Source: Pedosphaera parvula Ellin514 (lineage in GTDB: Bacteria > Verrucomicrobiota > Verrucomicrobiia > Limisphaerales > Pedosphaeraceae). From it: a DNA stretch of 64,000 nucleotides. This document shows, one piece after another, positions 40,823 to 58,442 of the stretch; within the stretch, counting starts at the first letter, position 1, and every line of letters begins with the position of its first letter. The notes beneath the pieces were generated by a model. It was not told the DNA's origin. It searched no databases and was given only the letters and a program-made list of their open reading frames with translations. Location: NCBI RefSeq assembly GCF_000172555.1, contig NZ_ABOX02000006.1:124001-188000 (forward strand), read 5' to 3'. The translations under genes were made by a program, and so were the position numbers.

Positions 40823-41599
40823 ATGAGCCAGTATGAAGAACGTTTCGGCGGCATAGGCCGTCTTTATTCTGCTGCGGGGTTGGAGCGTATCCGTTCCGCT
40901 CACGTCTGTGTGATTGGCATCGGTGGTGTGGGTTCATGGGCTGTCGAGGCCCTGGCCCGTTCTGGCACGGGTGAGTTGACGCTCATTGATCTCGATGAGG
41001 TCTGTGTCAGCAACGTGAACCGCCAGCTGCACGCTCTGGATGGCGAGATTGGAAAATCGAAAGTCGAGGTGATGGCCCGGCGAACTCAAGCCATCAATCC
41101 CGAGTGCAAAGTTCATGCCGTGAACGCTTTCTTTACGGAATCCAACGCGCAGGAAATCCTCGCTACCCGCTTTGACTATGTGCTTGATGCCATCGATAGC
41201 TCTTCTAAAAAATGCCTGATGATCGCGCTGTGCCGTGACAAAGGCATTCCCATTATCACGACCGGGGCTGCGGGCGGTCGTCGTAATCCCGCCGCCATTC
41301 AACTGGTTGACCTGACCCAATCCACAAATGACCGTCTCCTGCGGGAAACCCGAAGCAAACTGCGCACCCGCCATGGTTTTCCACGCGGCGAAAAAAAGTT
41401 CAACGTCGCCTGTGTCTGCTCAACGGAACTCCCGGTTTATCCCTCTCAGGATGGTTCGGTATGCCCTCAACCCGAACCAGGCACTGACCACCGGCTCAAT
41501 TGCAGCAGTGGCTTTGGCAGCGCAACTTTCGTGACTGGCGCTTTTGCCTTTCTTGCGACTGCGCATATCGTTCACGAGATTGCGCAACGTGAAAAATAA
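40823..41599 (+). CDS. tcdA: tRNA threonylcarbamoyladenosine dehydratase
   Basis: An E1-like enzyme (CsdL/YgdL family) that cyclises t6A to ct6A in ANN-decoding tRNAs using ATP. The protein of 258 residues shows YEERFGGIGRLYSAAGLERI at the start, the adenylate-binding VIGIGGVGSWAVEALARSG, DLDEVCVSNVNRQLHA, and DYVLDAIDSSSKKCLMIALC. The end (GSATFVTGAFAFLATAHIVH) is typical. It converges on the tatD gene 14 bp away. Together with tsaE and tsaB, three genes of one tRNA modification pathway lie in this window, though not in one operon. Confidence 0.93.
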   Translation: MSQYEERFGGIGRLYSAAGLERIRSAHVCVIGIGGVGSWAVEALARSGTGELTLIDLDEVCVSNVNRQLHALDGEIGKSKVEVMARRTQAINPECKVHAVNAFFTESNAQEILATRFDYVLDAIDSSSKKCLMIALCRDKGIPIITTGAAGGRRNPAAIQLVDLTQSTNDRLLRETRSKLRTRHGFPRGEKKFNVACVCSTELPVYPSQDGSVCPQPEPGTDHRLNCSSGFGSATFVTGAFAFLATAHIVHEIAQREK

Positions 41600-41613
41600 C
41601 TGTTGTCAAAGAA

Positions 41614-42426
41614 CTAATCCAGCAGCCTGCCAAACAGTTTCCTAAAGTTCTCTTCAGTTCTCTGCCTCAGCACATCCGCCTGCTCATCCACCAGCTCTGC
41701 TACAAAACGATAGATGGCCCCAATGTTAGCCGGGTTGTTCACTGCTTTTCCTGAACTTTCACCAGTGATCGGAAAGTCGGTATATTTTTCCGGCGGCAAC
41801 ATGTCCGGTGCATCGGTCTCGATCAGCAATCGGTCACGCGGCACCTGCCGGAACACCTCCTGTTGCCTGCCTTTTCGTTCCTGGGCAAAATGTCCAGAGA
41901 TTGAAAAGTAGGCGCCCAGTTTTGCGAGCGGCTGAATCATCTCCTGCGGTCCGCCATAGGAATGGAGCAAAAAACCACACTGCGGTCGAGGTTGTTCCTG
42001 TAGCAGTTCCAGCAGCCTTCCCCAGGCGCGCAAACAGTGAATGCTCACCGGCAGGTTTCTTTCAGCAGCCAGCCGTAATTGCCATACAAACACTTCCTCC
42101 TGCTGCGGCAGATCGTAATCTTCGATCCATCGATCCAGTCCGATCTCTCCAATCCCTGCCGGAACCTGATTTAGACAAGTCGTCAATTTTTCCTGCCAAT
42201 GAACAGAACGTTGAGAGACGTACCATGGATGCAAACCAAATGTGGGAATGACCATGCGGTTGTTGCGAGCCAATTCCAACACTGCCGGCCAATCCTGCTC
42301 CTGGGTGCCATTGACAACCATCTTTGCGACGTTCAATTCGTTCAATTGCCTCTGTATCGTGCCCAAATGAGGAGAAAGCTCGGTGGCCTGCAAATGGTTA
42401 TGAGCGTCGTAAAGTGCCGCACTCAT
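41614..42426 (-). CDS. TatD-family metal-dependent hydrolase
   Basis: A 270-residue TIM-barrel hydrolase. The metal-binding start is LYDAHNHL (H-x-H); GLHPWYV, the IGEIGLDRW Glu, VSIHCLRAWGRLLELL and LLIETDAPDML (C-terminal Asp) follow the TatD pattern. Members are Mg-dependent nucleases (3'-5' exonuclease in E. coli TatD) or have unknown substrates. The first bases overlap the end of the sufE-like gene by 4 bp (ATGA), so the two are coupled. Confidence 0.9.
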   Translation of the reverse strand: MSAALYDAHNHLQATELSPHLGTIQRQLNELNVAKMVVNGTQEQDWPAVLELARNNRMVIPTFGLHPWYVSQRSVHWQEKLTTCLNQVPAGIGEIGLDRWIEDYDLPQQEEVFVWQLRLAAERNLPVSIHCLRAWGRLLELLQEQPRPQCGFLLHSYGGPQEMIQPLAKLGAYFSISGHFAQERKGRQQEVFRQVPRDRLLIETDAPDMLPPEKYTDFPITGESSGKAVNNPANIGAIYRFVAELVDEQADVLRQRTEENFRKLFGRLLD

Positions 42427-42866
42427 TCAAGTTTCCTTTTGGGTTCTGAAACTGAGGTCAATTGAGTCTGGGCATAATCGCGGATTTTTTCCCAGACTCG
42501 TGCCAAGCCATTCCGCCGATTGGGGGTTAAATGTTGTGTGATTCCTACTTCAGCCAAAAACGAGGGATCATGGCTCACAATTTCCAAAGGCGTCAGATCA
42601 CTATAAAAATTGCAAAGCACCGTGGAAATACCCTTCATGATGGCGGATTCGGAATCCGTGTGAAAATAACATTTTCCCTCTTTAAACTCCGACACCAGCC
42701 ACAGTTTTGCCAGACAACCTTCCACGCGATAAGCATCGATCTTGAACGTTTCCTTCAGCGGCTCCTGTCTGCGGCCTTGTTCCACCACGTAGGCAAATCG
42801 TTGCTGCGCATCTTTGAAGTGCGCGAGCTCGGTTAGCAATGCCTGCTTCTTGTCTTTGGCTGTCAT
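42423..42866 (-). CDS. sufE: SufE-family sulfur acceptor
   Basis: SufE accepts persulfide sulfur from a cysteine desulfurase (SufS/CsdA) and delivers it for Fe-S assembly. The 147-residue protein carries the key Cys51 in YRVEGCLAKLWLV, matching E. coli SufE Cys51. It also has YVVEQGRRQEPL, SAIMKGISTVLCNFYSDLTP, and LTPNRRNGLARVWEKIRDYA at the end. No suf operon is nearby; instead it is coupled to tatD. In E. coli the paralogue CsdE works with CsdL, the tcdA homologue, whose gene here lies just beyond tatD, so a CsdE-like role is plausible. Confidence 0.92.
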   Translation of the reverse strand: MTAKDKKQALLTELAHFKDAQQRFAYVVEQGRRQEPLKETFKIDAYRVEGCLAKLWLVSEFKEGKCYFHTDSESAIMKGISTVLCNFYSDLTPLEIVSHDPSFLAEVGITQHLTPNRRNGLARVWEKIRDYAQTQLTSVSEPKRKLE

Positions 42867-42995
42867 GGTTGTTAAAACGTCATTTGCCGAGGCAGACTAG
42901 CATCAGGCTCATTACAACACCAGATTGGGGTAATTAGGTATCCAGAGTGATAAATCTACCGGTTGATTCTTCACGTTCCTCTGGCATTTTGTATT

Positions 42996-43565
42996 ATGAG
43001 TGCGAAGACATCCACAGTGTCGGTGCCTCGGGACCTCGAAAGGTGCATCAACCCACCGCGTGTACTTTCTTTTAATTTGAAGGATGACGGCAGCATACCC
43101 AACAACCCGAAACTACCTCTGTTAATTTATCATCAAGCTATTGATCTAGCTGAGCGCCGAGATCCCGCCTCCATTTTTGAGCGTTTGTTTGCCGCTCACG
43201 ACTGGGAAGGTTCCTGGCGAAATGGAATTTATACGTTTCACCACTATCACAGCACCACCCACGAAGTCCTTGGTATCTACAATGGCTCGGCCACCGTCCG
43301 CTTCGGTGGTGAAAATGGTATCACGCAAAAATTGCGCTACGGCGATGTCGTTATCATTCCAGCTGGTGTGGCTCATAAAAATCTCGGTTCGAGTGCCAAC
43401 CTTGGAGTTGTCGGCGCTTATCCTGGCGGCCAACCATGGGATATGAATTATGGCCGGAAAGGCGAGCGTCCGCAGGCTGACCATAATATCGCGCACGCTC
43501 CATTCCCTGAAGCTGATCCCATCTACAGTCATGAGGGCCCAATCTTCCAATATTGGAACAGTTAA
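42996..43565 (+). CDS. Cupin-domain protein (YjlB-like)
   Basis: A single-domain cupin of 189 residues from ATG 42996; a TTG 33 bases earlier is less likely. The two cupin motifs are visible: FHHYHSTTHEVLGIYNGSATVRFGG (H-x-H, Glu) and YGDVVIIPAGVAHKNLG (His), giving a probable metal site. Similar small YjlB-type cupins have no known reaction; sugar isomerase or dioxygenase activities are possible. It converges on the VWA gene, 9 bp away. Confidence 0.85.
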   Translation: MSAKTSTVSVPRDLERCINPPRVLSFNLKDDGSIPNNPKLPLLIYHQAIDLAERRDPASIFERLFAAHDWEGSWRNGIYTFHHYHSTTHEVLGIYNGSATVRFGGENGITQKLRYGDVVIIPAGVAHKNLGSSANLGVVGAYPGGQPWDMNYGRKGERPQADHNIAHAPFPEADPIYSHEGPIFQYWNS

Positions 43566-43573
43566 CCTCCAGT

Positions 43574-44728
43574 CTACTTCGTCACGGCTACGTTTCGTGT
43601 CGCCGCCCATTGTCCAATATCCTGTTTGGAAATCGCCGCCGCCATAAGCTCCGGAAACAAATCGGGGGTGCAGGCAAATGAAGGAATCTCCATGCCGGCA
43701 AATGCTGCGGCGTGTTGATGATCAAACATCGGAGCCCCGTCATCATTTAACGCCAGCAAGGTCACCACCTGCGTCCCCGCAGCTACAATGGATCCCATGC
43801 GTTTCAACATTTCCTTGCTGTTGCCACCTTCATAAAGATCGCTGATCAATACAAGAATTGTGTCCTGCGGTTGGCGGATCAATCCCTGGCAATAGCTCAA
43901 TGCCTTGTTGATATCCGTACCACCTCCCAGTTGCGTGCCAAACAACACATCCACCGGATCACTCAGCTTATCGCTTAAATCCACGACTGCCGTATCGAAC
44001 ACCACCATCCGCGTTTGCACTGCTGGCAGCGATGCGAGTACCGCGCTGAAAATTCCCGCGTAAACCACCGAAGTTGCCATCGACCCACTCTGATCCACGC
44101 ACAAAATAATGTCGCGAAGCGATGAGCGCTTGCGTCCGTAACCAATCCGTGTTTCTGGGACAATCGTGCGATACTCCGGTTGATAATGTTTCAAGTTGGC
44201 CCGAATGGTGCGGTTCCAATCAATTTCATTGTGCCGCGGCCTGCGATTGCGTGTCGCGCGATTCAAGCTCCCCATCACCGCCTGTCGCATCGGATTCGCC
44301 AGTTTCCGTTCCAACTCTTCAACTACCTTCCGAACAACCATCCGTGCCGTTTCCCTAGTCTTGCTCGGCATGATGTTTTTCAAGGCCAACAGATTCGCCA
44401 CCAGGTGCACATCCGGTTGGACTGCCTGCAACAATTCCGGCTCCAGCAACATCTGCTGCAGATTCAATCGTTCCAATGCATCCTTCTGCATCACCTGCAC
44501 CACTGTTGAAGGGAAGTAAGTCCGAATATCTCCCAGCCAGCGCGAAACGTTGGGATTCGAACTGCCAAGTCCGCCCTTCCGCTCGGACTCATAAAGCGCA
44601 CCCAATGCCTTGTCCATTCCAGCGTCGGTTCCGGACAGCCCAAAGCCTGTCCCGTCTGCCTCATCTCCACCCAAAACCAACCGCCACCGTCTCAATCTTT
44701 CCTCTTTATTCTGTGTAGCTGTGGACAT
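43574..44728 (-). CDS. VWA-domain protein, CoxE/YehP-like
   Basis: A 384-residue cytosolic protein. The N-terminal half (~1-195) is helical and basic, with RRPRHNEIDWNRTIRANLKHY before the VWA domain. The C-terminal VWA domain (~205-365) has an intact MIDAS: DQSGSM, then LGGGTDINKAL, then LISDLYEGG. MIDAS domains bind ligands through Mg and commonly pair with MoxR AAA+ ATPases, one of which is encoded 2.4 kb upstream. It is the last gene of the SWIM-DUF5691-MoxR-DUF5682-VWA cluster and starts 12 bp after DUF5682. The layout resembles the uncharacterised E. coli yehL-yehM-yehP-yehQ genes. Confidence 0.88.
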   Translation of the reverse strand: MSTATQNKEERLRRWRLVLGGDEADGTGFGLSGTDAGMDKALGALYESERKGGLGSSNPNVSRWLGDIRTYFPSTVVQVMQKDALERLNLQQMLLEPELLQAVQPDVHLVANLLALKNIMPSKTRETARMVVRKVVEELERKLANPMRQAVMGSLNRATRNRRPRHNEIDWNRTIRANLKHYQPEYRTIVPETRIGYGRKRSSLRDIILCVDQSGSMATSVVYAGIFSAVLASLPAVQTRMVVFDTAVVDLSDKLSDPVDVLFGTQLGGGTDINKALSYCQGLIRQPQDTILVLISDLYEGGNSKEMLKRMGSIVAAGTQVVTLLALNDDGAPMFDHQHAAAFAGMEIPSFACTPDLFPELMAAAISKQDIGQWAATRNVAVTK

Positions 44729-44740
44729 GGTAAATTCCCT

Positions 44741-47074
44741 TTAGTTTTCAATTCCCAACAACTTTGCAACCAACGGCAGAACCTTCGCTGCGCGTTCCTC
44801 GTCGAAATCCATCTTTTGCACCTGGCTTGCAAGCTTTGACGTTCCGCTCCGCACTCGTTCGCCCATCTGCCTTCTTTCGGGTGCGGAGAAGGTCGAAAAA
44901 GTTCTCCGCAGCAGAGGCAGTAATGCTGTAAAGGTTTCATCCTTCAACTCGCAAACCCACTCATCCAACACCTGCCACAACGATTCATCGTGCAGGAGCA
45001 ACAATCCGCTTCCTTTGAGAAAACCTTCCACCCAGGCCGCCGCCTGAACAGGCTCATTCGCGGTGGATAATGCCAATCCCATCCGCCGCGCCGATTCCTC
45101 CCGGCTGAAAACTCCCGCATCCATCAGCAGGCGACAACACCGCCCCGCTAACAATCCGTGAATTCCTTGCTGCTGCGAGAGTTGTTTTAAAACTGTCTGC
45201 CACGCCTTGAGATACTCTTCCTTTTGCAACAGTGAGAGCGCACTTTGAACCGCCAGCAAACGTTCGAACATATCTGCTGCCGCCTCATCATCCAGCGAAG
45301 CACATGCTACCGGCAACCCAATGCAAATTCTCGCCACCAATCCCGAAACAATCTGATCGATCAACGTCGAGTCTGTCTGACGCACGTTGCCATATCTTAA
45401 AATCTGCGCCAATGGCGGCAGCGCGGCCATCAACTGCGGCACATCACTCGCCACCGCTGCTTCGTTTTGCAGCCGGACCATGATATGCCGAATCGCATCA
45501 GGCAAATCAGCCAGCAACGTTTGGTCCAACAACGCCGTCAATTCCGGCAACGCCGGCGCCTCCTCTGCCAATTTATACGCCCGACCCGACGCCGCACTCG
45601 CCACCGTGTTTCCCCAAATGGCTGCCTCAATAATCGCGACCGCAAATTCCGGCTGCCATCGCACGCGCCACACTTCGTGAAAAGTCCCTTTCTTCCCGCT
45701 CGCCCGCTCTGCCTGGCCCCATGGAATGTTCAATAAATTCAGTCGATGCAACAATTGGCTCCGTCCAAGATCCGTATCTTTGCGTAAGTCCAGGTCCAGC
45801 ATTTTCTCCAAAGCCTCCGGCGGCAAACGCAGTCGTTTCTGCTCGCGTTGCAAATCCTGTTGCAATGGCACCACCGGCGTTTCATCCGGCACTTTGCCCA
45901 GACGCTCGCTCACCACGAGCTTGTCATGGATCAACCGCAACGGCAGATGTTCGCCGTGACACAAAACCGTTTGCGTTGCTTCATTTAATTCGGGCAGGCC
46001 GGGCAGGGGACGACTCCTCACTGCCGCCAACGACTCCGCCAGCCGCACGGTTTCAATCACGCTAGCTGACGACGCATCCAAATCTTCTCCGCGCAGCAGA
46101 TGCGCCACCCGCGTCAGCCACTTGATGATAATATCCTGCGTCTCCGCGTTCCTGCCTTTCTTGCCATCCCGGCAATCCCACAGGTGCTGATACCATCCCG
46201 GCGATTCAATCCCCGCGCCATAACCGCTCGCAAACGCCAGCCGCCCGTAAGTCCACGGCACCCACGTCGCCTGGACCTTCACTTTCAGCAATCCTTTCAG
46301 CAACTCCGCGTCCTCCTTCGCCGCTGGCATTTTCGTCAATGCCGGCGCATGCCAAGCTCCACACACAACCGCTATTCGCTGAAATCCTTCCTTCTCCGCC
46401 ACGCGAATGGTCTGCCGCATGTGCGCTTCACGTCGTTGCTCGCGAAGCGGATTGAGTATCGCCAATGAAGATTCCAACGACGCCTCGCGTAATGCCGTCA
46501 TTGCCTCCAGAATCGCTTCAAACAGTTCCGTGCTATTATGCCGATGCTCCACCATGTGTTCCCACCAACGCTCGCTGTCGCTATAACCCGCCGCTTCCGC
46601 CAGGTGGGCGAGGGGATCACGTTGCAACAAGGCTTTCAAAGCAGGTAACAATGCTGGCTCTATCGGCTGTTCCTGAGTAATTTCGCATTCCTCACACTCT
46701 GCTTCCGCATCGGCTTCATCACCTTTGACTGCGATCTCCTTTGCCTCCAAAGCTTCCTCCGCCAATTGATGTGTCAGCGGCAAATCCATGAAGCGCACCG
46801 GAACATTTTTGCCGAAGCCATATCGCAGGGCCTGCCATTCGGGCGAGAACACCGCAAACGGATAATAAACTGCCTGCTTGGGATTCTCCGGCACATAGAC
46901 GAGCAACGCCACCGGCGGTTCCATCTGTTCATGCATCAGCAGCGGTAGCGCTGCTTCCGCATCGGGTGGACCTTCCACCAAAATCATGTCAGGCTTCAAC
47001 GCTTCCAGCGCCTCGCGCAAACTCCGCGCTGAGCCGGGACCATGATGTCTTATACCAAAGATATGAACCGACAT
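44741..47074 (-). CDS. DUF5682-family protein
   Basis: A 777-residue protein whose role is unknown. The N-terminus reads HIFGIRHHGPGSARSL, then MILVEGPPDAEAALPLL; near residue 235 comes RIAVVCGAWHAPAL. This spacing of an early His pair, an acidic EGPPD and a late GxWH recalls the TIKI/TraB/EreA-like superfamily of metal-dependent hydrolases; that link is my inference. The second half (~350-777) is helical and repetitive, perhaps a scaffold for the ATPase. It lies 18 bp after moxR and 12 bp before the VWA gene. E. coli YehM appears to be the equivalent by size and context. Confidence 0.85.
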   Translation of the reverse strand: MSVHIFGIRHHGPGSARSLREALEALKPDMILVEGPPDAEAALPLLMHEQMEPPVALLVYVPENPKQAVYYPFAVFSPEWQALRYGFGKNVPVRFMDLPLTHQLAEEALEAKEIAVKGDEADAEAECEECEITQEQPIEPALLPALKALLQRDPLAHLAEAAGYSDSERWWEHMVEHRHNSTELFEAILEAMTALREASLESSLAILNPLREQRREAHMRQTIRVAEKEGFQRIAVVCGAWHAPALTKMPAAKEDAELLKGLLKVKVQATWVPWTYGRLAFASGYGAGIESPGWYQHLWDCRDGKKGRNAETQDIIIKWLTRVAHLLRGEDLDASSASVIETVRLAESLAAVRSRPLPGLPELNEATQTVLCHGEHLPLRLIHDKLVVSERLGKVPDETPVVPLQQDLQREQKRLRLPPEALEKMLDLDLRKDTDLGRSQLLHRLNLLNIPWGQAERASGKKGTFHEVWRVRWQPEFAVAIIEAAIWGNTVASAASGRAYKLAEEAPALPELTALLDQTLLADLPDAIRHIMVRLQNEAAVASDVPQLMAALPPLAQILRYGNVRQTDSTLIDQIVSGLVARICIGLPVACASLDDEAAADMFERLLAVQSALSLLQKEEYLKAWQTVLKQLSQQQGIHGLLAGRCCRLLMDAGVFSREESARRMGLALSTANEPVQAAAWVEGFLKGSGLLLLHDESLWQVLDEWVCELKDETFTALLPLLRRTFSTFSAPERRQMGERVRSGTSKLASQVQKMDFDEERAAKVLPLVAKLLGIEN

Positions 47075-47092
47075 GGTGATATCCTTCCTGGC

Positions 47093-48169
47093 TCAATCGT
47101 GATTTTTGCAAGCCCGGTACAAATCCTTCCAACCGTCCCGCTCCTTCACCACGGTTTCCAAATATTCCTGCCACACAACCCGGTCTTGAATCGGATCCTT
47201 CACCACCGCTCCGATCAAACCACTCGCCACATCGGCCGCCCGCATCGTTCCATCGCCAAAATGCGCCGCGAGTGAAAGCCCATTGTTCACCACTGAAATG
47301 GCTTCCGCTGTGCTGAGAGTTCCCGTGGGCGATTTCACCTTGGTTTTTCCATCCGCTGTCGCTCCGCTGCGTAACTCGCGAAATACCGTTACGATCCGCC
47401 GTATCTCCTCCAAGGCTGGTGGTTCGGCCGGCAATTCCAGCGCGCGCCCCAAACTCTCCACCCGCTGTTGCACGATGCTCACTTCTTCCTCGATCGAATC
47501 CGGCAGCGGCAGCACCACGGTGTTAAAGCGCCGCTTCAACGCGCTCGAAAGTTCATTCACCCCGCGATCCCGATTGTTTGCGGTGGCAATCACATTGAAT
47601 CCTTTCACCGCCTGCACTTCTTCTCCCAGTTCAGGAATTGGCAGTGTCTTTTCCGACAAAATCGTGATCAACGAATCCTGCACGTCAGCGGGAATGCGTG
47701 TCAGTTCCTCGACCCGCGCAATCTTTCCCTCCTGCATCGCGCGCATCAATGGACTCGCCACCAGCGCCTTCCGCGATGGCCCCTCCGCCAGCAACCGCGC
47801 ATAATTCCAACCATAGCGCACCGATTCCTCACTCGTTCCCGCCGTGCCCTGCACCAGCAACGTCGAGTCCCCCGCAATCGCCGCCGCCAGATGTTCGGCG
47901 ACCCAGGTCTTCGCCGTGCCCGGCACTCCCAGCAAGAGCAGCGCCCGATCCGTCGCCAGCGTCGCAATCGCAATTTCAATCACCCGCCGGTTGCCGATAT
48001 ATTTTGGCGACACCACAAACCCGTCGTCCAGTTTTCCACCCAGCAGGTAAGTCGCCACTGCCCATGGCGATAATTGCCAGCGCGGCGGACGCGTCTTCGT
48101 ATCCACCTTCGCCAGTTTTGATAATTCCTCCGCATACTGTTGTTCCGCATGTTCCCTTAATGCATTCAT
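47093..48169 (-). CDS. MoxR-type AAA+ ATPase
   Basis: A 358-residue ATPase. Walker A is GVPGTAKT (81-88). The Walker B position reads ARVEELTRIPADVQDSL, so the usual Asp of ADEINRAP is Glu; sensor 1 is IATANNRDRGVNELSSALKRRF. MoxR ATPases act as chaperones that insert metals or remodel VWA partners. The gene sits between DUF5691 (214 bp upstream) and DUF5682 (18 bp downstream). Upstream lie four helically phased GTTAACT repeats, so it may have its own promoter. It resembles E. coli YehL in context. Confidence 0.92.
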   Translation of the reverse strand: MNALREHAEQQYAEELSKLAKVDTKTRPPRWQLSPWAVATYLLGGKLDDGFVVSPKYIGNRRVIEIAIATLATDRALLLLGVPGTAKTWVAEHLAAAIAGDSTLLVQGTAGTSEESVRYGWNYARLLAEGPSRKALVASPLMRAMQEGKIARVEELTRIPADVQDSLITILSEKTLPIPELGEEVQAVKGFNVIATANNRDRGVNELSSALKRRFNTVVLPLPDSIEEEVSIVQQRVESLGRALELPAEPPALEEIRRIVTVFRELRSGATADGKTKVKSPTGTLSTAEAISVVNNGLSLAAHFGDGTMRAADVASGLIGAVVKDPIQDRVVWQEYLETVVKERDGWKDLYRACKNHD

Positions 48170-48347
48170 AATGTTTTATTTCAAATTAAGTCGAAGTTTT
48201 TCCCGTTTTAAATTGCGGCAAATGATTGGCGGACACGAGAGATGGCCTACGCGGAACACGAAACACGCAACATACAGTTTCGAACATTCCATGACGCTCG
48301 TTCCCATTTGAAATTGGAAATTTGTCATTCGAAATTAAAGTTGTGCC

Positions 48348-48384
48348 GTTAACTGCCGTTAGCTCCGGTTAACTCGTGTTAACT
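48348..48384. repeat. Four 10-bp-phased GTTA(A/G)CT repeats
   Basis: GTTAACT occurs at 48348, 48368 and 48378 and GTTAGCT at 48358, exactly 10 bp apart, so all four face the same side of the helix. They lie between the end of the DUF5691 gene and the moxR start, ~180 bp before the latter, inside a 214-bp gap with no gene. Confidence 0.8.
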
Positions 48385-49907
48385 CACGTTTCTTTCAACG
48401 CCACCACCATGTCATGCCGGAATTGTACCATCGCAATAAACTGATCCACCACTTCCGACCACAAATTCCAATGCTTCCCATCCACCGGCCAGCCCTCCGC
48501 CAGGTTGCCCGCGAGTCCCGGGTCCATCCACTTGCCCACCGCCACCAGATGACTGCGCGCCATCCAATCACCCGATTTTGCAAGTTCCTTCGCCTGCAGC
48601 GCCACGGCCTTCGAAAACTCCTTGCTCCACGGCCCACCGGCCTTGGCCAGCATCGATTCGAACACCAGGTCCACACTCCAGCCGCTCTCAAAAGCTTTCA
48701 GTATGCACTTCTCCCGTTGCTCCGCTGGCAGCACCGAAAGCAACTCGCCCGTTTGCGGCAGCATCGTTTTCTTCTCGCCAGTTTCCATCAGCAACGCCTC
48801 CGCCCAAACCGCATCGCGCGATTTCACCGCCGCATTCGCCCATGCCTCCATCAACAACCCCCGCCATTCCTTTTCGGCGGCTGCCATGGCAATCAACTCC
48901 TCGACCGTCATTTGATATTGCGCACTCCAAAAGCCAATCGGCACATTCTCAATAATCTGCTTCAGCCAAAATGCCTTCTCGCCCAGTCCGGAAAGTTTCC
49001 GCGTTTCAATCCCATCCCGCGCCATCGCCTTGTCGCAGTCAGAAGGCAATGTCACCTCAATCTTCGCTTTGCCGGCTTTGCCTTTCTTCCCTTTATCCGC
49101 CGCCTCGATTTTCACCAGCGGTTGCAACCGCTCCATCATCCTTTGCGCGAACCGCGACTCCGGCAACCGCGCCAGCAAGCCAGCGGCCGCCTGACGCACT
49201 TCCTTCCGCTTATCATCCAACGCACTCTCCAAAAAATTCTCATCAGCTACGCTCAACCCAAACTGCATCGCACCCACAAACGCCGCCCGATCCTCCGGTG
49301 ACTCCTGAGCCCACGTCGATTGCAACAACTCCCGGCTTCGTGCCGCCTCACGCTTTCGTAGTCGTTGCAAGAAAGTCAATCGCGCCGCCCGGCTTCCCGT
49401 TTCCCAAATCGCCTCATCCTCCACCGCGCCCGCCACCCAGCTCCAATCGGCATTCTGTCCCGCCAGCCATACTCCCCGCTGGCCAATCACTTTCAAAATC
49501 GCTTCCCGCCACTCAGCATTTTTAGTCCCGACATCCAGCAACGCCGGCAAATCCTCCGCCTGCACGCGCTTCCCGCATTCTGCACTCGCCGCCAGCCATT
49601 CCGGCAACACCTCACCGAAACGTCCGCCCAGCATCTCCTTCAAAAACGCCGCTGCCCGCGCACTGCAACCTGGCAAAGTCTCTTCCGCCGCCGGTTCCAC
49701 TGCTGTGATCTTCTCAATCCCTGGCACCCGTCCGACTCTTTGATGCAGAAATAACAATCCCGCCGTTCCCAGCAGTTGCGCTTCTGCCGGTTGCTTTTCG
49801 AGCCTCGAAAGTATCGCCTGCAACGGTTGTTCCGCTTTCGGTAAATTCCCTTGCCGCTCCGTTCCGAGCAAAGCCACCTGCGCCAGTTGTTGCACCGTCT
49901 GGTTCAT
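48384..49907 (-). CDS. DUF5691-family protein
   Basis: A 507-residue protein starting at ATG 49907, which overlaps the SWIM gene stop by 4 bp (ATGA); an upstream in-frame extension to 50105 would lie inside the SWIM gene and is rejected. It begins MNQTVQQLAQVALLGTERQG, the usual DUF5691 start, and is nearly all helical. HEAT-like segments are visible (ESALDDKRKEVRQAAAGLLARLPESRFAQRM). A Lys/Gly linker (ADKGKKGKAGK) divides two halves. No enzymatic motif is evident; the repeats suggest a scaffold or adaptor between the SWIM protein and the ATPase. Confidence 0.85.
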   Translation of the reverse strand: MNQTVQQLAQVALLGTERQGNLPKAEQPLQAILSRLEKQPAEAQLLGTAGLLFLHQRVGRVPGIEKITAVEPAAEETLPGCSARAAAFLKEMLGGRFGEVLPEWLAASAECGKRVQAEDLPALLDVGTKNAEWREAILKVIGQRGVWLAGQNADWSWVAGAVEDEAIWETGSRAARLTFLQRLRKREAARSRELLQSTWAQESPEDRAAFVGAMQFGLSVADENFLESALDDKRKEVRQAAAGLLARLPESRFAQRMMERLQPLVKIEAADKGKKGKAGKAKIEVTLPSDCDKAMARDGIETRKLSGLGEKAFWLKQIIENVPIGFWSAQYQMTVEELIAMAAAEKEWRGLLMEAWANAAVKSRDAVWAEALLMETGEKKTMLPQTGELLSVLPAEQREKCILKAFESGWSVDLVFESMLAKAGGPWSKEFSKAVALQAKELAKSGDWMARSHLVAVGKWMDPGLAGNLAEGWPVDGKHWNLWSEVVDQFIAMVQFRHDMVVALKET

Positions 49908-51247
49908 GCTTCCTCCCTCTGCTTTCGACTCCACAAATGGGCAAATCGTCCTTCCGCCGAAACGCTCACGGGTTGCAGGAAATCTCCATCCCACTCGCCA
50001 AAAACCGTTACCGCTCGGCCACCGCTCATCGCCAGTAATTCCCAACCCTTCGCAAAACTCGGTGTCAATGGCACGCACCGTCCTTCTCCATCGCGCAACT
50101 GCCACCGCTCATCCCTTCTCACCGGCACCACCGCACTCAGGCGCATCGGAAATTGCTCAATCCATGGATGCATCGCCAACGCCTCCGCATACGCCGCCAT
50201 CAAATCCGCAATGCTGGCCTGTCCCGGTATTCCATCCAAATTCTTCGACACCCCACCGCGCTCCTTAATGATCGCCCGCATCGGGTAGGCCGACGGAAAA
50301 TAAACCACTTCACCCTCGAAAGCCGTGCCCGGCACGAGACTCGTGTCCAATGGCTGCGTCAAATGCGCGAAATGCAGATGCATCGCGTTCCGTCCGCTCT
50401 GCTTCCCATGCAGCCACGTCCGTTGCACCCGGATTTTGTCCTCCTCTTCCAACGTCCTTCCCAGCACCAGCCACTCATCCTTCACACCCGAATTGCCGAG
50501 CAATTCATCCTGGTTCTGCGTCCACCCGATCAATGTCCGAATGTCGTTTTGCAATTCCACCGACAATGTCTCAATGCGTTGAAATCCTTCACGCAACAAA
50601 TGCAATCTACCCAGTTGCTCCAGCAATCGCTCCGGCCACCCTTCACCCGACGCCGGAATTCCCGACAACTCCCGCACGCGACGCGCAATCCCCGGCGCCT
50701 GCGCATCAATCATCCGCGCCGCTGTCGATTCCCAAAAACTGTTCGGCCGACCCTGCGCTCCCGCCAATCCCTGCCGCACCAGGTCGCTCATCCAAATCTC
50801 CAACTCCTTCAATCCCGCCGAAACCTTCGCCTCCCGTTCCGCCACCCGCTTCTTCTGCGCCTCAGGATCGCTGATCTTCTCCCCGGCCTGCGCCTTGGCC
50901 ACCTTCTTCTCCGCCCGTTGCGTCCGGCCCGCGAGCCATTCGTTCACCCAGTCCGGTGGTGTTCCTTCCGCCACCGCACCCGGTTGACCTGCCAATATCA
51001 GGAATAATCCCAGCGAATGCTTGCACGGAAACTTCCGGCTCGGGCAGGTGCATTTGAAGGCTGGCTCATTTAAATCAATGCTCGCCTGGTAAGGATTCTT
51101 CCCGCTCCCCTGGCACAAACCCCACGCCGACTGCCCGTCCCGCCCCATCGACACCCATTTCCGCGGCGATGCCAATTCCTTCCCCGACTTCGCCGAACTC
51201 GCATCCGGTGCCAGTGATAAAACTTTCTCAGTAGTCCAAGTATCCAT
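49904..51247 (-). CDS. SWIM zinc-finger protein (YehQ-like)
   Basis: A 447-residue protein with a SWIM zinc finger near residues 70-90: FKCTCPSRKFPCKHSLGLFL (C-x-C...C-x-H). SWIM domains bind zinc and contact DNA, RNA or proteins. A basic Lys/Arg/Glu-rich coiled segment (WLAGRTQRAEKKVAKAQAGEK) follows, then a long helical part without known motifs. It is the first gene of the five-gene minus-strand cluster, with its stop overlapping the DUF5691 start. The region just upstream (51248 on) is intergenic and should carry the cluster promoter. Confidence 0.9.
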   Translation of the reverse strand: MDTWTTEKVLSLAPDASSAKSGKELASPRKWVSMGRDGQSAWGLCQGSGKNPYQASIDLNEPAFKCTCPSRKFPCKHSLGLFLILAGQPGAVAEGTPPDWVNEWLAGRTQRAEKKVAKAQAGEKISDPEAQKKRVAEREAKVSAGLKELEIWMSDLVRQGLAGAQGRPNSFWESTAARMIDAQAPGIARRVRELSGIPASGEGWPERLLEQLGRLHLLREGFQRIETLSVELQNDIRTLIGWTQNQDELLGNSGVKDEWLVLGRTLEEEDKIRVQRTWLHGKQSGRNAMHLHFAHLTQPLDTSLVPGTAFEGEVVYFPSAYPMRAIIKERGGVSKNLDGIPGQASIADLMAAYAEALAMHPWIEQFPMRLSAVVPVRRDERWQLRDGEGRCVPLTPSFAKGWELLAMSGGRAVTVFGEWDGDFLQPVSVSAEGRFAHLWSRKQREEA

Positions 51248-51885: not shown

Positions 51886-52656
51886 TTAATGTCTCCGAAA
51901 TCCTTTTTCCTCTAGAATCGAATTGATCTCCGGATGATCAAATTCTTCGGCTGCTTCCTGAGCATATCCGGGTAATTCTCCCTCTGGATTTTGCAACTCC
52001 TCAATGATTAGTCGTACCACACGCTCATCCTTTCTCCGCGCCAAGCCGACCATCGCTTCGCCTTTTGCGTCTGGATACTTGTCGTTCAAACGATCAAACA
52101 ATGCTTCTCTGATTTCGGGCGAATCAACATCGATCATTGAGCCCAATCCAAATGTTGCCCAGTCTCGAATGTCCTCGTCGGAATCCTTTGAAAGTTCAAT
52201 TAAACCTTGGATGGCTGTTGGATCCGTTTGACACTGCAACCCATGTGTCACCGCATATCGAATGTCAGCATTTGCATGATTCTTTAAATTCAATAACAAA
52301 TTGATGGCGCGCGCCTCCTTCAGATGCCCTAAAGCGAAGCAAATCGCTTTGATTACCTCGACCGACTTTTCCCTTTCAAGCGTTGACATCAACATGTCCC
52401 CTGACTCCTTGCGAAATGGCAGTGCCGGTGCGCCCAATTGCCCGAGCACATTGGCCGCCAAGATTCGCTCTTTTTCCTTCTCGCTACGAATCAGGCTTCT
52501 CACTACTTCAAAAACCTCGTGACCCCCGCGGCGTCTTAACTCTCTAATTGCGTCCCAGGCCAGATTTTCATCCTCGGAATCTCGCGCAATGGCAATGAAC
52601 TCCTGTACCACTTTGCCCTTTAGTTCATCTGGATTTTCCATCCCTGCATTTTGCAT
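51886..52656 (-). CDS. HEAT-repeat protein
   Basis: A 256-residue all-helical protein with about five HEAT/PBS-type repeats (AANVLGQLGAPALPF, AICFALGHLKEARAINLLLNL, WATFGLGSMIDVDSPEIREAL, AKGEAMVGLARRKDERVVRLI). Such proteins serve as binding scaffolds; no catalytic residues are seen. The start is ATG 52656 or 52641. It begins 9 bp after the PP2C stop, so the two are likely co-transcribed and may cooperate in regulated protein binding. Confidence 0.8.
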   Translation of the reverse strand: MQNAGMENPDELKGKVVQEFIAIARDSEDENLAWDAIRELRRRGGHEVFEVVRSLIRSEKEKERILAANVLGQLGAPALPFRKESGDMLMSTLEREKSVEVIKAICFALGHLKEARAINLLLNLKNHANADIRYAVTHGLQCQTDPTAIQGLIELSKDSDEDIRDWATFGLGSMIDVDSPEIREALFDRLNDKYPDAKGEAMVGLARRKDERVVRLIIEELQNPEGELPGYAQEAAEEFDHPEINSILEEKGFRRH

Positions 52657-52665
52657 GGTTGCAAT

Positions 52666-53280
52666 CTATCCGTTTGCCAATATCACCGCCACATCATCCT
52701 GCAAATTCCCCGAAGGTAACCTTACCAACTCCACCAGTGCTCTGGCCGCACCTCTCGCATCAGATGCCCTGACCACCTCACAAATCCTCTCCGCCCCGGT
52801 ATATTTGAACAACCCATCCGTTCCCAGCAACAACGTGCCTTCTCTAAATTCTTTTCTGAACGACACCACATTCACACGGCCACTCCCAAGGAATGGCTTT
52901 CTAATCTGATTCTCCGTCAACCGCTCATAACTCCCCGCACCAATCAACCAAGCCTCCGAATCCCCCACACTCGCTCCGACAATCACATCTCCAGCCACGA
53001 CCACAATCACCGCCGTCGTTTCACCTGCCACTGGATCAGCTGCAATCTCTCGATCGATTTCCTCCAAGAGTTGCGAGCAGGCGAGGGGATCCATCGTAAT
53101 CAATCTGGCAACATTTCCTCGCACCATATCGATGACCTTTTGCGCCGCCTCTGCACCACCACTCCTGCCACCCGCACCATCCGCCACCACCAAAATCGTC
53201 GTGCCGAATTGCTCAATGATCTCCCCCCGATCCTGCAACTCCACATTCCCCGCCTCAATCAACTTCGCTGTCTGAATCAT
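52666..53280 (-). CDS. PP2C-type serine/threonine phosphatase-like protein
   Basis: A compact 204-residue PP2C (PPM) domain: TILVVADGAGGRSGGAEAA supplies the first metal-binding Asp, VIVGASVGDSEAWLIG the second motif, LLLGTDGLFKYTG the third, and LQDDVAVILA the last metal-binding Asp. It is shorter than typical (~240), missing part of the flap region. Partner kinases are not present in the window. GAAGGAG precedes the ATG by about 6 bases. Likely target: a neighbouring signalling protein or the HEAT scaffold. Confidence 0.87.
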   Translation of the reverse strand: MIQTAKLIEAGNVELQDRGEIIEQFGTTILVVADGAGGRSGGAEAAQKVIDMVRGNVARLITMDPLACSQLLEEIDREIAADPVAGETTAVIVVVAGDVIVGASVGDSEAWLIGAGSYERLTENQIRKPFLGSGRVNVVSFRKEFREGTLLLGTDGLFKYTGAERICEVVRASDARGAARALVELVRLPSGNLQDDVAVILANG

Positions 53281-53308
53281 TCTACTCCTTCAATGTCAGA
53301 ATCCGGGC

Positions 53309-53671
53309 TTACACAACAACCCACCTATACTCCAAACTTGACCCGCCGAAATTGACAAGCAATGCGCGCTCCTTCTTTGTTGCCTGAAGGTGGTGTTTGA
53401 CTTGCGCCTCCTCCTTCGACGTCAACGCCGTCGTCGCCCGTAAATCCACGATGATTTCTCCATGGCAAACAAGACTGGCTTTGTAGAACACGCCCAAGGG
53501 TTTCCCTTTGTAATAAATCGGGAATTGAACATCCTGTTCAAAAGGAACTTTCTGCATTCCCAATTCCACCGCGAGGGCCTCCTGGTAAACCTCTTCCGGA
53601 AACCCGCCTCGCAATTCACGATGCACCTCCGTGCAGGCCTTGATGATTTCATTTTGCGAATCCTTGTTCAT
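53309..53671 (-). CDS. GxxExxY-family protein
   Basis: A 120-residue protein with the naming motif GGFPEEVYQEAL (G-x-x-E-x-x-Y), a restriction-endonuclease-like strand pattern, VQFPIYYKGKPLGVF, and IIVDLRATTALTSKEEAQVKHHLQAT. The family is common in Verrucomicrobiota, Planctomycetes and Bacteroidetes, with many copies per genome. The D...EAQ pattern suggests a PD-(D/E)xK-type fold, but no activity is established. It lies 28 bp before the PP2C start. Confidence 0.88.
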   Translation of the reverse strand: MNKDSQNEIIKACTEVHRELRGGFPEEVYQEALAVELGMQKVPFEQDVQFPIYYKGKPLGVFYKASLVCHGEIIVDLRATTALTSKEEAQVKHHLQATKKERALLVNFGGSSLEYRWVVV

Positions 53672-54742: not shown

Positions 54743-55513
54743 TCATTTCGATCCCAACCTCAATCGTTTCAACAACGAATCCAGCGCTCCCTTGCCTGAA
54801 GGCACTTCGGGCAAGGAGCTTTGCTGATACGCATTCTCCAACTCCGCCCGCAGGCGCTCATATTCCTTCGTATAAAACTCCATGTCAGCGTCCGCGAGTG
54901 TGGACTTCTCCGGCCCACCCAGTTTCCGCGCTACCAAGTCATGGATATACGAAAGCTTGAACTCCTCGTTTAAGGTCACCAGGTTCGCCTCAATCTGCCC
55001 CGTCCTCATCAAGTGAATCCCCGTTAACAGCACGCGATACACATAAAGAAGCGGCTTCACGCGACGCGGCCGCTCCTTGTCGAACAATTTCCACTGCGTC
55101 TCCGCAAACCCAAAGTAATGGTGACTGTGATGCTTGGTGATGCACAACTTCCCGATCTCCTTCAGCTCCTCATGCTCTGGCGTCGTTTGAATGATCAGTG
55201 GCGAATAAAGTTGCTCCAGCACATAACCATTCTTCTTCAGCATCAAGCCAAAGAACTTTTTCGCATCATGTGTCACCAGATCAAACTCCAACCCATCCTC
55301 AATCTTCGAAACCTCAATCGTCTCACGCCCGGTGCTCAGCCCAATCACCTCATTCACCGGCAGCACATGCACCCCGCGCAAATCATAATCCGAATCCGGC
55401 GACGGAAATCCGTACAGATGCGCCCCACTCACCGTCACAAAGAGCAGGGGATACAGCTGCTTCGCCGCTTCCGCTTCCAACCTTTTCCTGATTTTCTCTT
55501 GAATAACAAGCAT
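54743..55513 (-). CDS. RlaP-like nucleotidyltransferase 2
   Basis: A 256-residue polymerase-beta-fold nucleotidyltransferase. The catalytic signature is VTVSGAHLYGFPSPDSDYDLRG with Ser29-Gly30 and Asp42/Asp44 (D-x-D), followed by GVHVLPVNEVIGL and LVTHDAKKFFGLMLKKNG. RlaP (RNA ligase-associated polymerase) proteins are predicted to add nucleotides to broken RNA ends before ligation. ATG 55513 is chosen because GGAGGAA lies 8 bases upstream; an in-frame TTG is at 55531. It is the last gene of the RNA repair operon, 36 bp after its paralogue. Confidence 0.85.
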   Translation of the reverse strand: MLVIQEKIRKRLEAEAAKQLYPLLFVTVSGAHLYGFPSPDSDYDLRGVHVLPVNEVIGLSTGRETIEVSKIEDGLEFDLVTHDAKKFFGLMLKKNGYVLEQLYSPLIIQTTPEHEELKEIGKLCITKHHSHHYFGFAETQWKLFDKERPRRVKPLLYVYRVLLTGIHLMRTGQIEANLVTLNEEFKLSYIHDLVARKLGGPEKSTLADADMEFYTKEYERLRAELENAYQQSSLPEVPSGKGALDSLLKRLRLGSK

Positions 55514-55549
55514 CTCAAGTTCCTCCAGCAAATTATTCCAACTTTCATC

Positions 55550-56467
55550 TTATCTAACCATGGTGCCTCTTGCCCTGACCAGAAAAGTATTCACCTTCTC
55601 ATAATCCGGCCGCTCCGGCAGTTTCGTCGCTGCATACGCCGCATCAAATTCCTTGTGCAAACTCAACCGCCAGGTGTTCACTTCTGCCCAAGGCAGCTCA
55701 CCTCGTTTAATCGCCAGCAACTGTTCCCGATGCTCACCCACACGCACCGGCACCACTCCTTCTTTGAGCGCCGTCACACCGGATAGCAGCAACCGGATCA
55801 AATGCATCGCATGCTTCCATTTAATCTCGCCCCGTGCCCGCAAATCCTGTTCCAGCTTTTTAAACTGCGACATCACGTAACCATTGTAAGTCTGGTAAAT
55901 CACCTTCGAGAGAAAGCTCTCCCGTATTGCCAACAACTCCTGCGCCAATGGCGTCGCCAATTCAACCAGCGGTGTATACAGGCATTCCAAAATGTTCGGA
56001 TTCGCCTTCAACGCCAGCACCAGGAATTTCTGCAACTCCCAGTAAGCCTCTTCATTCTCCGGATTTTCCAATTGCTCCGGCACCCCATATAACGACCAAT
56101 GCAATTCCGCAGGCGGTAAATAAATCCCGCGCCGATCCGTATCTGACTCCTCTCCCTCCAACCCATACGCCCGCGACCCAACGACACACCGATAAATCAC
56201 AAACGAGTAATAATCTATCTCCGCTGCATGCGGATTTTCCGCACCAATTCCTTCTCCCTTGAATTGCTTCAATAATGACAATTGCTGACGACTGAATGCC
56301 CCTTCGGTTCCATCAGCGAACCGAACGCGGTAAGAATGCGTCCCATCCAGCGGCGCTTCAACAATCACGCCCACCGACCCGGCAGCATGCAAAAGCTCTC
56401 CCGTCGCCGACCTCAATTCCGTCCGCGTCACTACTTGAGTTCCCGTTGGTATGATTAAATGCATCAT
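55550..56467 (-). CDS. RlaP-like nucleotidyltransferase 1 with N-terminal beta-barrel
   Basis: A 305-residue protein. Residues ~5-65 form a small SH3-like barrel (GSVGVIVEAPLDGTHSYRVRFADG). Residues ~85-300 are an RlaP-type nucleotidyltransferase: YRCVVGSRAYGLEGEESDTDRRGIYLPP with Gly97-Ser98 and Asp109/Asp111, NPNILECLYTPLVE, and IKWKHAMHLIRLLLSGV, shared with its neighbour. The two differ in the extra barrel and in detail, so they may act on different ends or nucleotides. The ATG follows the HD/kinase stop after one base. Confidence 0.87.
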   Translation of the reverse strand: MMHLIIPTGTQVVTRTELRSATGELLHAAGSVGVIVEAPLDGTHSYRVRFADGTEGAFSRQQLSLLKQFKGEGIGAENPHAAEIDYYSFVIYRCVVGSRAYGLEGEESDTDRRGIYLPPAELHWSLYGVPEQLENPENEEAYWELQKFLVLALKANPNILECLYTPLVELATPLAQELLAIRESFLSKVIYQTYNGYVMSQFKKLEQDLRARGEIKWKHAMHLIRLLLSGVTALKEGVVPVRVGEHREQLLAIKRGELPWAEVNTWRLSLHKEFDAAYAATKLPERPDYEKVNTFLVRARGTMVR

Positions 56468-56468
56468 G

Positions 56469-57587
56469 CTAAACTTCTCCCACCAATGTCAGACCATGAC
56501 ACTCCGTGATTTGCGGCGGCTCCAGTTTTTCAAGAAGATGATGAATTACCTTCTCAGGAACACGTTGCTCCCTCCGCCGATTCCGTTCCAGAATATTTGA
56601 TATGGTTGGCTCGATGTAAACGATCTCAATGCGCGCTCCATAATCTGCAAACAAATCAATCCACCGCTTGCGCGTCTGTTGCATTGTGTTTGTCGCGTTA
56701 AATGCAAAATCCCTCCCGGCGCGCAAGTGTCCCCGAACTTCCTCCCGGGCAGCTTGAATTACCTTTCCCTGATTCTCTGTGGCATCAATGTCCAAATCCT
56801 CTCGAATCTGATCCAGGGCCACCACCGGAAGTCCCGGCTTGTGCTTCTGCAACCACGTATCCTTGCCCGAGCCAGGTAAACCAGACATCAAGGTCGCAGT
56901 GCATTTGTAATCCTCGCGCGGAATATAATGCAGGCTTGAAAGCTCCTTGCGATAAAACAGGAACCGCGCGTGATCATTTGCAAACGAATACGCGCGCTCA
57001 AAGCATTGATTTTCTTCCGCAATGATCTTCCAAAAGTGCAGCTTCTCCTCAGGCCGGCTCGTCTCCTCCGCTTTACGACCGCGGGTGTCTGCTATCGAGA
57101 ATAGATAAAGCAACCGGTTGTTCAGCAACCAGGAAAGTGAAATCACTTCCTGAACCTCGTGTCCTTTCTCGAGCAGATAAGGCGGACGTCCATGGTACCG
57201 CACCAAATGCACAATCTCCTCCCGTGTGTTCAGGTCAACCTGCAAGTCGCGGAGAACCTTGCGCGCCAACGCCGCCCCAACAATCGAGTGCTTCGGCGAC
57301 CGGGTGCGTCCTGAATCCGGATCAATCTCCGTCGTTGCCGGTTTGCCGCAATCATGGAGCAGGGCAGTGAACAGCAGCTTTAACTGAGAGAGTCGATCCA
57401 ACGCCCGATACTCTGCCAGCTTCGCAACTTCGTCCCAAACCATCTTGGTATGCGTCCACACGTCACCCTCCGCATGCCATTTCGAATCCTGCCCGCAAGC
57501 TGCCATCGCAGCAGCCCATGACTGCTTTTCAGCCCAGGTGATAATCTGCGCATTCGTCGCATTTATAATGTCCCGCCACGTTTTCAT
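56469..57587 (-). CDS. HD-domain / P-loop polynucleotide kinase fusion
   Basis: A 372-residue fusion of two RNA end-healing domains. The N-terminal HD phosphohydrolase (~1-190) has [23 protein letters not shown] (His-Asp pair ~78-79) and [14 protein letters not shown]; such domains can open 2',3'-cyclic phosphates. The C-terminal P-loop kinase (~225-372) has [39 protein letters not shown] and [11 protein letters not shown], the Pnkp-type pattern for 5'-OH phosphorylation. ATG 57587 overlaps the RNA ligase stop by 4 bp (ATGA). Together the domains would give the 3'-OH and 5'-phosphate needed by that ligase. Confidence 0.88.
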
Positions 57588-58324
57588 TCCCAAATATTCA
57601 CTCCCTCAATCAACAGGTTTTGCACCATGGCCTGATGCTGCCAATGTTCACTCCGTTTTACCTTTTCAACAAATTCCGGGCGCACCATTTTTGCCCTGCC
57701 TGTTACTCTTCCCTCAGTTTCGATTCTGAGATATAGCCCTTCCATCAATGTATCCGTCCCGCCGCTGATGGGATTTTCAAAGGCGCTGTCAAAAGCCGAA
57801 TTACCAACCAAATCCACCAATTCCTCCAAAGTCGACTTGCCTCTTTGAATCACCGGCACCGTCTGAATGCGGGTGCCTTCAAGCATCTTCAGCCGGGTCT
57901 CCAGATTAAGAAACTCGCCGGCATCCTTGTCGTAAATATCGAACTCAAAAAAATAATGGGGCAAACCGCGATAATGCACCGAGTGCTTCGCATACAACCA
58001 TTCTCCATAGAGTATGAAGCGACTGCCTAACATCTCTTCGAAGGCATTTCGTTTCACCGCCGTCCATTGCTTGAACAAATCATATTGCGGATGCATGCCC
58101 TCAGTGATTTCGTGCCCTCGACACTGCAACACCATCCTGCCCGCGGTTGTAAAGTGAATGCCCACATTAGTCCCATCCAACTTCTCTTCCACGATCAAAG
58201 AAGGATCTTTGATACACGCTTCGGACTCTTTATGTCCAAGGTGTTTATCATCATCCGTGCCCTGGGAGCCGAATAAATGCGGCGTCCGCGGATACTTAAC
58301 AAAATCATCTCTGCTCGAACCCAT
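57584..58324 (-). CDS. KxDG-type RNA ligase (Rnl2-like)
   Basis: An ATP-dependent ligase of the covalent nucleotidyltransferase superfamily, 246 residues. Motif I is [17 protein letters not shown] with the AMP-accepting Lys48. Motif III is the [12 protein letters not shown] region, motif [11 protein letters not shown], and motif [11 protein letters not shown]. It lacks a long C-terminal domain and so resembles the compact RNA_ligase family that seals 3'-OH and 5'-phosphate ends. Its ribosome site (CAGGAG) lies 8 bases before the ATG, and a perfect 14-bp palindrome sits ~20-34 bases upstream. The stop overlaps the start of the HD/kinase gene. Confidence 0.9.
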
Positions 58325-58344
58325 AAATCTCCTGACTCATTTCT

Positions 58345-58358
58345 CATTTGCGCAAATG
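58345..58358. promoter_or_regulatory. 14-bp perfect palindrome upstream of RNA ligase gene
   Basis: CATTTGCGCAAATG reads the same on both strands and lies 21-34 bases before the ligase start. Position and symmetry fit an operator for a dimeric regulator, perhaps of an internal promoter. No regulator gene is in this operon. Confidence 0.5.
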
Positions 58359-58376
58359 AATTACTCTTTTTAAAGG

Positions 58377-58428
58377 AAACATTGGCCAACACGCGAACGC
58401 TCTCTTGCGTCCGCGGTTGGCCATGTTT
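58377..58428. promoter_or_regulatory. Hairpin between rtcB and the RNA ligase gene
   Basis: AAACATTGGCCAAC (58377-58390) pairs with GTTGGCCATGTTT (58416-58428) with one bulged base; inside, ACGC (58391-58394) pairs with GCGT (58407-58410). The long stem starts 15 bp after the rtcB stop and is not followed by a T run, so it may be an mRNA processing or stability element or a target of the repair enzymes, rather than a normal terminator. Confidence 0.5.
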
Positions 58429-58442
58429 GCGTTAACGTTTCC

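Follow-up and report, generated by a model that had tools for sequence, protein, structure and literature searches.

A conserved five-gene MoxR-VWA operon of Pedosphaera parvula Ellin514, with a putative TIKI/TraB-type hydrolase and relatives in the yehLMPQ genes of Escherichia coli

The five genes and their linkage across genomes

The 64,000-nucleotide stretch of Pedosphaera parvula Ellin514 DNA analysed here (contig NZ_ABOX02000006.1, positions 124,001 to 188,000; hereafter the window) contains at 43574-51247 five genes, all of them on the minus strand, whose products are a SWIM zinc-finger protein, a DUF5691 protein, a MoxR AAA+ ATPase, a DUF5682 protein and a von Willebrand factor type A (VWA) protein. 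A first-pass annotation had described these genes as a conserved AAA+/VWA machine, and this description stands, as all five open reading frames (ORFs) were found on one strand, their products fall into the corresponding Pfam families and both the metal ion-dependent adhesion site (MIDAS) of the VWA protein and the motifs of MoxR are conserved with few or no exceptions. The first gene encodes the SWIM protein (49904..51247, 447 residues; PF04434, E 1.8e-4; AlphaFold model with a mean predicted local distance difference test score, pLDDT, of 94) and is followed by those for the DUF5691 protein (48384..49907, 507 residues; PF18944, E 7e-138), MoxR (47093..48169, 358 residues; AAA_5, E 1.2e-39) and the DUF5682 protein (44741..47074, 777 residues; PF18934, E 6e-299 across its full length), with the gene for the CoxE-like VWA protein last (43574..44728, 384 residues; PF05762 (VWA_CoxE), E 9e-50). 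The VWA, DUF5682, MoxR and DUF5691 assignments are clear, while the SWIM match lies barely over its cut-off (21.4 vs 19.6 bits).

The five same-strand genes form an operon. The start of the DUF5691 gene was corrected to an ATG at 49907 that overlaps the stop codon of the SWIM gene (ATGA), an overlap that makes translational coupling of the pair probable; the GTG at 50105 was rejected as a start, being an artefact of a mechanical ORF list. The remaining intergenic gaps measure 214 bp (DUF5691/MoxR), 18 bp (MoxR/DUF5682) and 12 bp (DUF5682/VWA), and 638 bp lie between the SWIM gene and its nearest upstream neighbor. Scans of the operon region for repeats and for promoters and terminators returned nothing notable.

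When species-representative genomes were scanned with a DUF5682 profile, one pattern yielded at least 577 relatives, and the analysis used the best 80 of these, a sample that is biased to near relatives of the DUF5682 protein in the window. These 80 loci derive from cyanobacteria, acidobacteria, planctomycetes, Chloroflexi, Verrucomicrobia, Bacteroidota, Pseudomonadota, Abditibacteria and others. The first-pass annotation had named rare linkage of the five genes as the finding that would speak against it; instead, among the 55 loci with sufficient flank, 48 have the full five-family set and 46 retain the order SWIM-DUF5691-MoxR-DUF5682-VWA, which excludes a chance arrangement. The identical order is also found on an annotated Rhizobium plasmid and, with one small gene inserted, on an annotated Deinococcus plasmid, and the first four genes are retained in order on an annotated plasmid of Methylosinus. 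The phyletic check that had been suggested likewise came out in favor of the module, as the partners still occur together in genomes that do not keep the set intact: the six genomes followed up, each with an incomplete set of DUF5682 neighbors, all encode the cognate MoxR (75-82% identity, adjacent in one of them) and five of the six encode DUF5691. Among 289 genomes of the window's phylum DUF5682 exceeds the cut-off in 9, and DUF5691 is found with DUF5682 in six genomes vs without it in one (p 8e-10). Distance matrices built for the five proteins correlate with one another at r 0.79-0.93, part of which is explained by shared ancestry.

Two loci have the SWIM and DUF5691 genes joined or apparently joined. 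In one (L032:5767-8727) both lie in a single open frame, and in Hymenobacter (L142:4189-7218) a DUF5691 gene of 3030 bp occupies the place of the pair, from which length and position only we judge that the two are probably fused. We consider it well supported that the five genes are one conserved module. A near full-length relative of DUF5682 (30% identity) was also observed in an unverified fecal 'phage' scaffold (L143, MT835988.1), which is probably bacterial DNA.

Conserved features of the five proteins

The residues expected of a working motor and its adaptor are retained throughout. The MIDAS residues D212, S214, S216 and D297 of the VWA protein are invariant in all 74 relatives and T271 is present in 72 of them, and in MoxR the Walker A motif, the EE Walker B motif, sensor-1 N198 and R213/R214 are invariant in 71 of 71 sequences, with position 88 being S or T. 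MoxR evolves very slowly, its mean pairwise identity across phyla being 75%. MoxR-VWA pairs remodel clients, and the NorQD motor acts on the linker of its VWA partner (PMC13036017). The operon resembles NorQD and CoxDE in pairing a MoxR AAA+ motor and a VWA protein, the latter in the window being a member of the CoxE Pfam family, but differs in that it is without an adjacent metalloenzyme client and has three more conserved partners.

The SWIM finger (residues 65-83, 50999..51055) has its zinc ligands C66, C68, C75 and H77 invariant in 59 of 59 relatives, and residues 3-113 of the protein match the ZSWIM8 SWIM region in structure (Z 8.6). In the model, residues 245-433 (49949..50515) form two barrels that align with the tandem oligonucleotide/oligosaccharide-binding (OB) domains of HIN-200, RPA70, SSB and telomere-binding proteins at Z ~5-6.4, and the protein therefore, as modeled, probably ends in tandem OB-like barrels. 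The proposal of the first-pass annotation that SWIM signals nucleic-acid contact gains from this C-terminal resemblance (Z ~6), although the match is only middling, and since Z values below 8 can reflect a common arrangement we infer nucleic-acid binding by the SWIM protein as a fair expectation and do not count it as a result. The scaffold role given to DUF5691 in that annotation held in part, as a HEAT-like signal was obtained only as a sub-threshold HEAT_2 match, and the protein is a probable alpha-helical repeat scaffold. A 'SWIM zinc finger family protein' of Caulobacter, gene 3482, is listed among transposon mutants altered in biofilm (PMC13001252).

The DUF5682 protein is modeled (mean pLDDT 89) as an N-terminal alpha/beta domain followed by a long alpha-solenoid. 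Nine of its residues, putatively of an active site, namely R9, H10, E34, E79, D97, R215, E216, G239 and H242, are invariant in all 87 DUF5682 sequences and also in an alignment with YehM of E. coli, the proteins of three other loci that carry the E. coli-type variant of the operon (variant B, below) and that of locus L008. Within the N-terminal domain (residues 1-290, 46205..47074) the landmarks GxxH, E and R-x(7)-I-x(15)-GxxH have the order and spacing found in TraB (R-x(7)-I-x(14)-GxxH). As a pattern, which was drawn up with the sequences already in view, these landmarks matched 85 of 87 DUF5682, 7 of 7 TraB, 3 of 3 ChaN and 2 of 4 Ere sequences, and 15 of 438 unrelated proteins.

Profile comparisons point in the same direction. 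A shallow alignment matched ChaN at E 6e-4, a diverse one matched it at 0.0034, and TraB was matched at E 0.0038, all at the R..GxxH motif, with scores of ~30 vs a maximum of 20.9 among the 42 unrelated families used as a null; reference pairs in the same test (ChaN-Ere and ChaN-TraB) reached ~1e-6 to 1e-5. We regard these profile matches to DUF5682 as suggestive, not conclusive. DUF5682 profiles matched no PDB sequence. The top structural match of residues 1-254 was 7w5z_E (Z 9.7 over 186 residues, root-mean-square deviation 4.7); this Tetrahymena complex IV is reported with a TraB-family subunit (PMC10060162), an assignment that TraB sequences and profiles did not confirm for chain E. The TIKI enzymes have a 2His/2Glu set (PMC6254334), of which DUF5682 has two invariant histidines and E34 but, as in TraB, is without the first-motif glutamate. 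The N-terminus of DUF5682 is like the TIKI/TraB/ChaN/EreA superfamily in its GxxH, E and R(N/D/E)..I..GxxH landmarks and, tentatively, in the fold match over that region, and unlike it in being without the Ere/RRSP-type first-motif glutamate, in being joined to a long solenoid and in its weak profile scores. On balance it probably belongs to the TIKI/TraB/ChaN-type fold class, and DUF5682 would then be a putative hydrolase.

The E. coli variant and the DUF4132 partner

The set had been likened at the outset to E. coli yehL-yehM-yehP-yehQ, and for the first three of those genes the likeness is borne out: their products are the orthologs of MoxR, DUF5682 and VWA (42%, 29% and 37% identity, respectively), the genes are collinear and a SWIM protein is encoded within the operon, with a DUF4132 gene, yehI, close by. 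It does not extend to the remainder, as E. coli has no DUF5691 and its SWIM gene, yehQ, is placed last, and only the zinc finger of YehQ aligns with the SWIM protein of the window (E 0.0016). The notion that YehQ is the fused equivalent of SWIM and DUF5691 was rejected since the alignment is limited to that finger. The best match of YehL in the window's genome is the MoxR of the operon, at 42-43% over 350 residues vs 25-31% for the other, partial MoxR-like matches, and the sole match of YehP is the VWA protein of the operon (37% identical). By pairwise identity, the MoxR of the operon belongs to the YehL subfamily, a subfamily already named in the MoxR literature (PMC3893208, PMC11432383). RavA-ViaA is likewise a MoxR-VWA pair, of a host, E. 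coli, that also has YehL-YehP, but it represents another MoxR subfamily with other partners (PMC3893208).

Three of the sampled loci (L103, L105 and L107) carry variant B. The yehLMPQ stretch was matched in 5301 of 5426 E. coli genomes, with 80% or more of its length covered in 5162 of them (95%), and is therefore core in this species and not an accessory defense island. In one variant-B operon a DNA gyrase B-like protein is encoded between MoxR and DUF5682 (L103:6426-7577).

DUF4132 is a recurrent sixth member. Its gene lies immediately downstream of the VWA gene in six Bacteroidota loci (one family, of which one member was identified by Pfam), separates MoxR from DUF5682 in three loci from the phylum of the window and adjoins three variant-B loci; upstream of yehL, E. 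coli has yehI (DUF4132), the yehH pseudogene and yehF (WGR family). Within the phylum, DUF4132 occurs in 5 of 9 genomes with DUF5682 vs 6 of 186 under a conservative assumption (p 2e-5), a contrast that genome size has possibly inflated. The genome of the window itself encodes a DUF4132 protein with a C-terminal DUF7737 domain (L145:7716-10253, contig C14), which is unlinked to the operon.

Depletion of the damage-response repressor DdrO in Deinococcus radiodurans strongly raises the expression of one DUF4132 gene and one WGR-domain gene (PMC8533742), and molR of E. coli is listed among the genes under LexA control (PMC11039860). As DUF4132 and WGR partners belong to damage regulons, we infer that the setting of the five-gene machine is damage to nucleic acids or a similar stress, and this lends indirect support to the first-pass suggestion of a stress system. 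A NADAR gene is inserted between DUF5682 and VWA in loci of two unrelated phyla (L018:7710-8147, by Pfam, and L026:12359-12793, by similarity), a hint of ADP-ribose chemistry.

Searches of the open literature, with subscription papers outside their scope, turned up neither the five-gene architecture nor the TIKI-like assignment, nor the OB barrels or the link to DUF4132, and the names DUF5682 and DUF5691 do not appear in the papers searched. New here are the TIKI/TraB/ChaN-type landmarks of DUF5682, the OB-like barrels of the SWIM protein and DUF4132 as a sixth member. The five-gene set is widespread in distant bacteria and a close variant of it consists of core genes of E. coli, and the predicted active site, the DUF4132 partner and the damage-regulon link make its function testable by knockouts, point mutants and pull-downs in that organism.

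Proposed mechanism and alternatives

Because a strictly conserved motor, an adaptor and an enzyme-like protein share one operon, the simplest reading is that MoxR and VWA act on DUF5682 while SWIM and DUF5691 place the complex, a reading that we favor tentatively and with somewhat less than even confidence. The products would constitute a cytosolic chaperone or remodeling machine from the YehL subfamily of MoxR-VWA pairs, in which a MoxR hexamer would be the ATP-driven motor and the CoxE-like VWA protein its MIDAS adaptor and co-chaperone. Together they would bind and remodel DUF5682, with its solenoid as the docking arm, so that the N-terminal TIKI/TraB-like hydrolase is matured, loaded or switched on. 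SWIM and DUF5691 may form one scaffold whose zinc finger and tandem OB barrels tether the complex to nucleic acid or, alternatively, to a client that is bound to nucleic acid, and in many lineages a DUF4132 protein, or sometimes a WGR protein, would join. A broader proposal is a hitherto undescribed damage or stress pathway, shared from E. coli to cyanobacteria, in which a MoxR-VWA pair on a SWIM/OB nucleic-acid scaffold would govern a cytosolic hydrolase of TIKI/TraB fold (protease or esterase), with DUF4132 and WGR proteins as damage-induced partners; it is speculative, and we consider it improbable in this complete form.

A number of observations weigh against remodeling of a DUF5682 hydrolase in a damage setting. 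The client of MoxR and VWA may be a protein other than DUF5682. Ere-family profiles gave no match to DUF5682, the first-motif glutamate of Ere-type TIKI enzymes is missing, Foldseek searches with the whole model were dominated by alpha-solenoids with no PDB match at E <= 0.001, and the best structural match is the chain whose TraB-family identity was not confirmed; the OB matches, as noted, are middling. The damage link passes via DUF4132, a partner outside the operon of the window whose co-occurrence genome size may have inflated. No LexA-type boxes were found upstream of the operons in the beta/gamma loci or the window, nor in the yehL region of K-12; the boxes that were found are one of Gram-positive type upstream of the operon in L055 and one with a single mismatch directly upstream of yehF, a kind of match obtained 7 times vs 4 expected by chance.

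The alternative that survives best is a chaperone of the NorQD or CoxDE kind for the insertion of a metal or cofactor, in which MoxR and VWA would load a metalloenzyme encoded elsewhere and DUF5682, SWIM and DUF5691 would serve as accessory specificity factors. The VWA protein does belong to Pfam VWA_CoxE, the MoxR-VWA pairs whose function is known serve to insert metals (PMC13036017, PMC9976466) and molR, which adjoins the E. coli operon, was named after molybdate use (cited in PMC8533742). Against this, NorQD and CoxDE adjoin their clients whereas no recurrent metalloenzyme is present in the flanks of the 80 loci, five conserved genes exceed the needs of such chaperones and the invariance of DUF5682 is itself enzyme-like. 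We view this explanation as possible, if on the whole doubtful.

The first-pass annotation had also raised a conflict system, which here would mean that a MoxR-VWA threshold switch frees a toxic DUF5682 hydrolase upon infection sensed by the SWIM finger and OB barrels through nucleic acid. MoxR-vWA ternary systems of like logic, which also combine MoxR and vWA with further conserved components, have been proposed (PMC7159879), and the patchy occurrence of the operon in the phylum of the window (9 of 289 genomes have DUF5682 above the cut-off) and its presence on some plasmids would suit such a role. The operon is, however, without the four defining third components of those systems: a Pfam scan of the five genes found no VMAP, iSTAND, FtsH or beta-propeller, with bpMoxR slightly under its cut-off. 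The PADLOC 2.0 defense library, which covers systems described up to its release, likewise gave no match except trivial P-loop matches to IetA, and the flanks of the 80 loci are ordinary metabolic genes with no recurrent defense neighbor. There is also no recurrent variable effector, the same five families recurring in 46 of 55 loci, and MoxR is slow-evolving at 75% identity across phyla. Given that 95% of E. coli genomes carry yehLMPQ as core genes, that the defense library is without a nontrivial match and that no variable effector recurs, the conflict reading is disfavored and we think it quite improbable.

Least probable of all is an RNA-repair or RNA-quality module, in which the operon would work with RtcB/RlaP-type repair and MoxR-VWA would strip proteins off damaged RNA: genes for RtcB, a PF09414 RNA ligase, an HD/AAA_33 kinase-like protein and two RlaP proteins do lie ~3.5 kb upstream (54743-59954, minus strand), RlaP accompanies DUF5682 in the phylum (6 of 9 vs 32 of 280, p 2e-4, an association that may mirror genome size) and SWIM and OB domains could bind RNA, but in the other loci the surroundings of the operon hold neither an RlaP nor a kinase relative, and RtcB in two only, on the opposite strand, and the two clusters in the window are set apart by the 638-bp gap and three more genes. 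The RNA-repair neighbors were rejected as a general partner of the operon, as they do not recur in other loci. The three genes that intervene between this cluster and the SWIM gene (51886-53671, minus strand) encode a HEAT-repeat protein, a PP2C-type phosphatase and a PDDEXK_3 protein. Downstream of the operon, 40823-43565 holds ordinary genes, namely those for ThiF, a TatD-type nuclease, SufE and a cupin protein.

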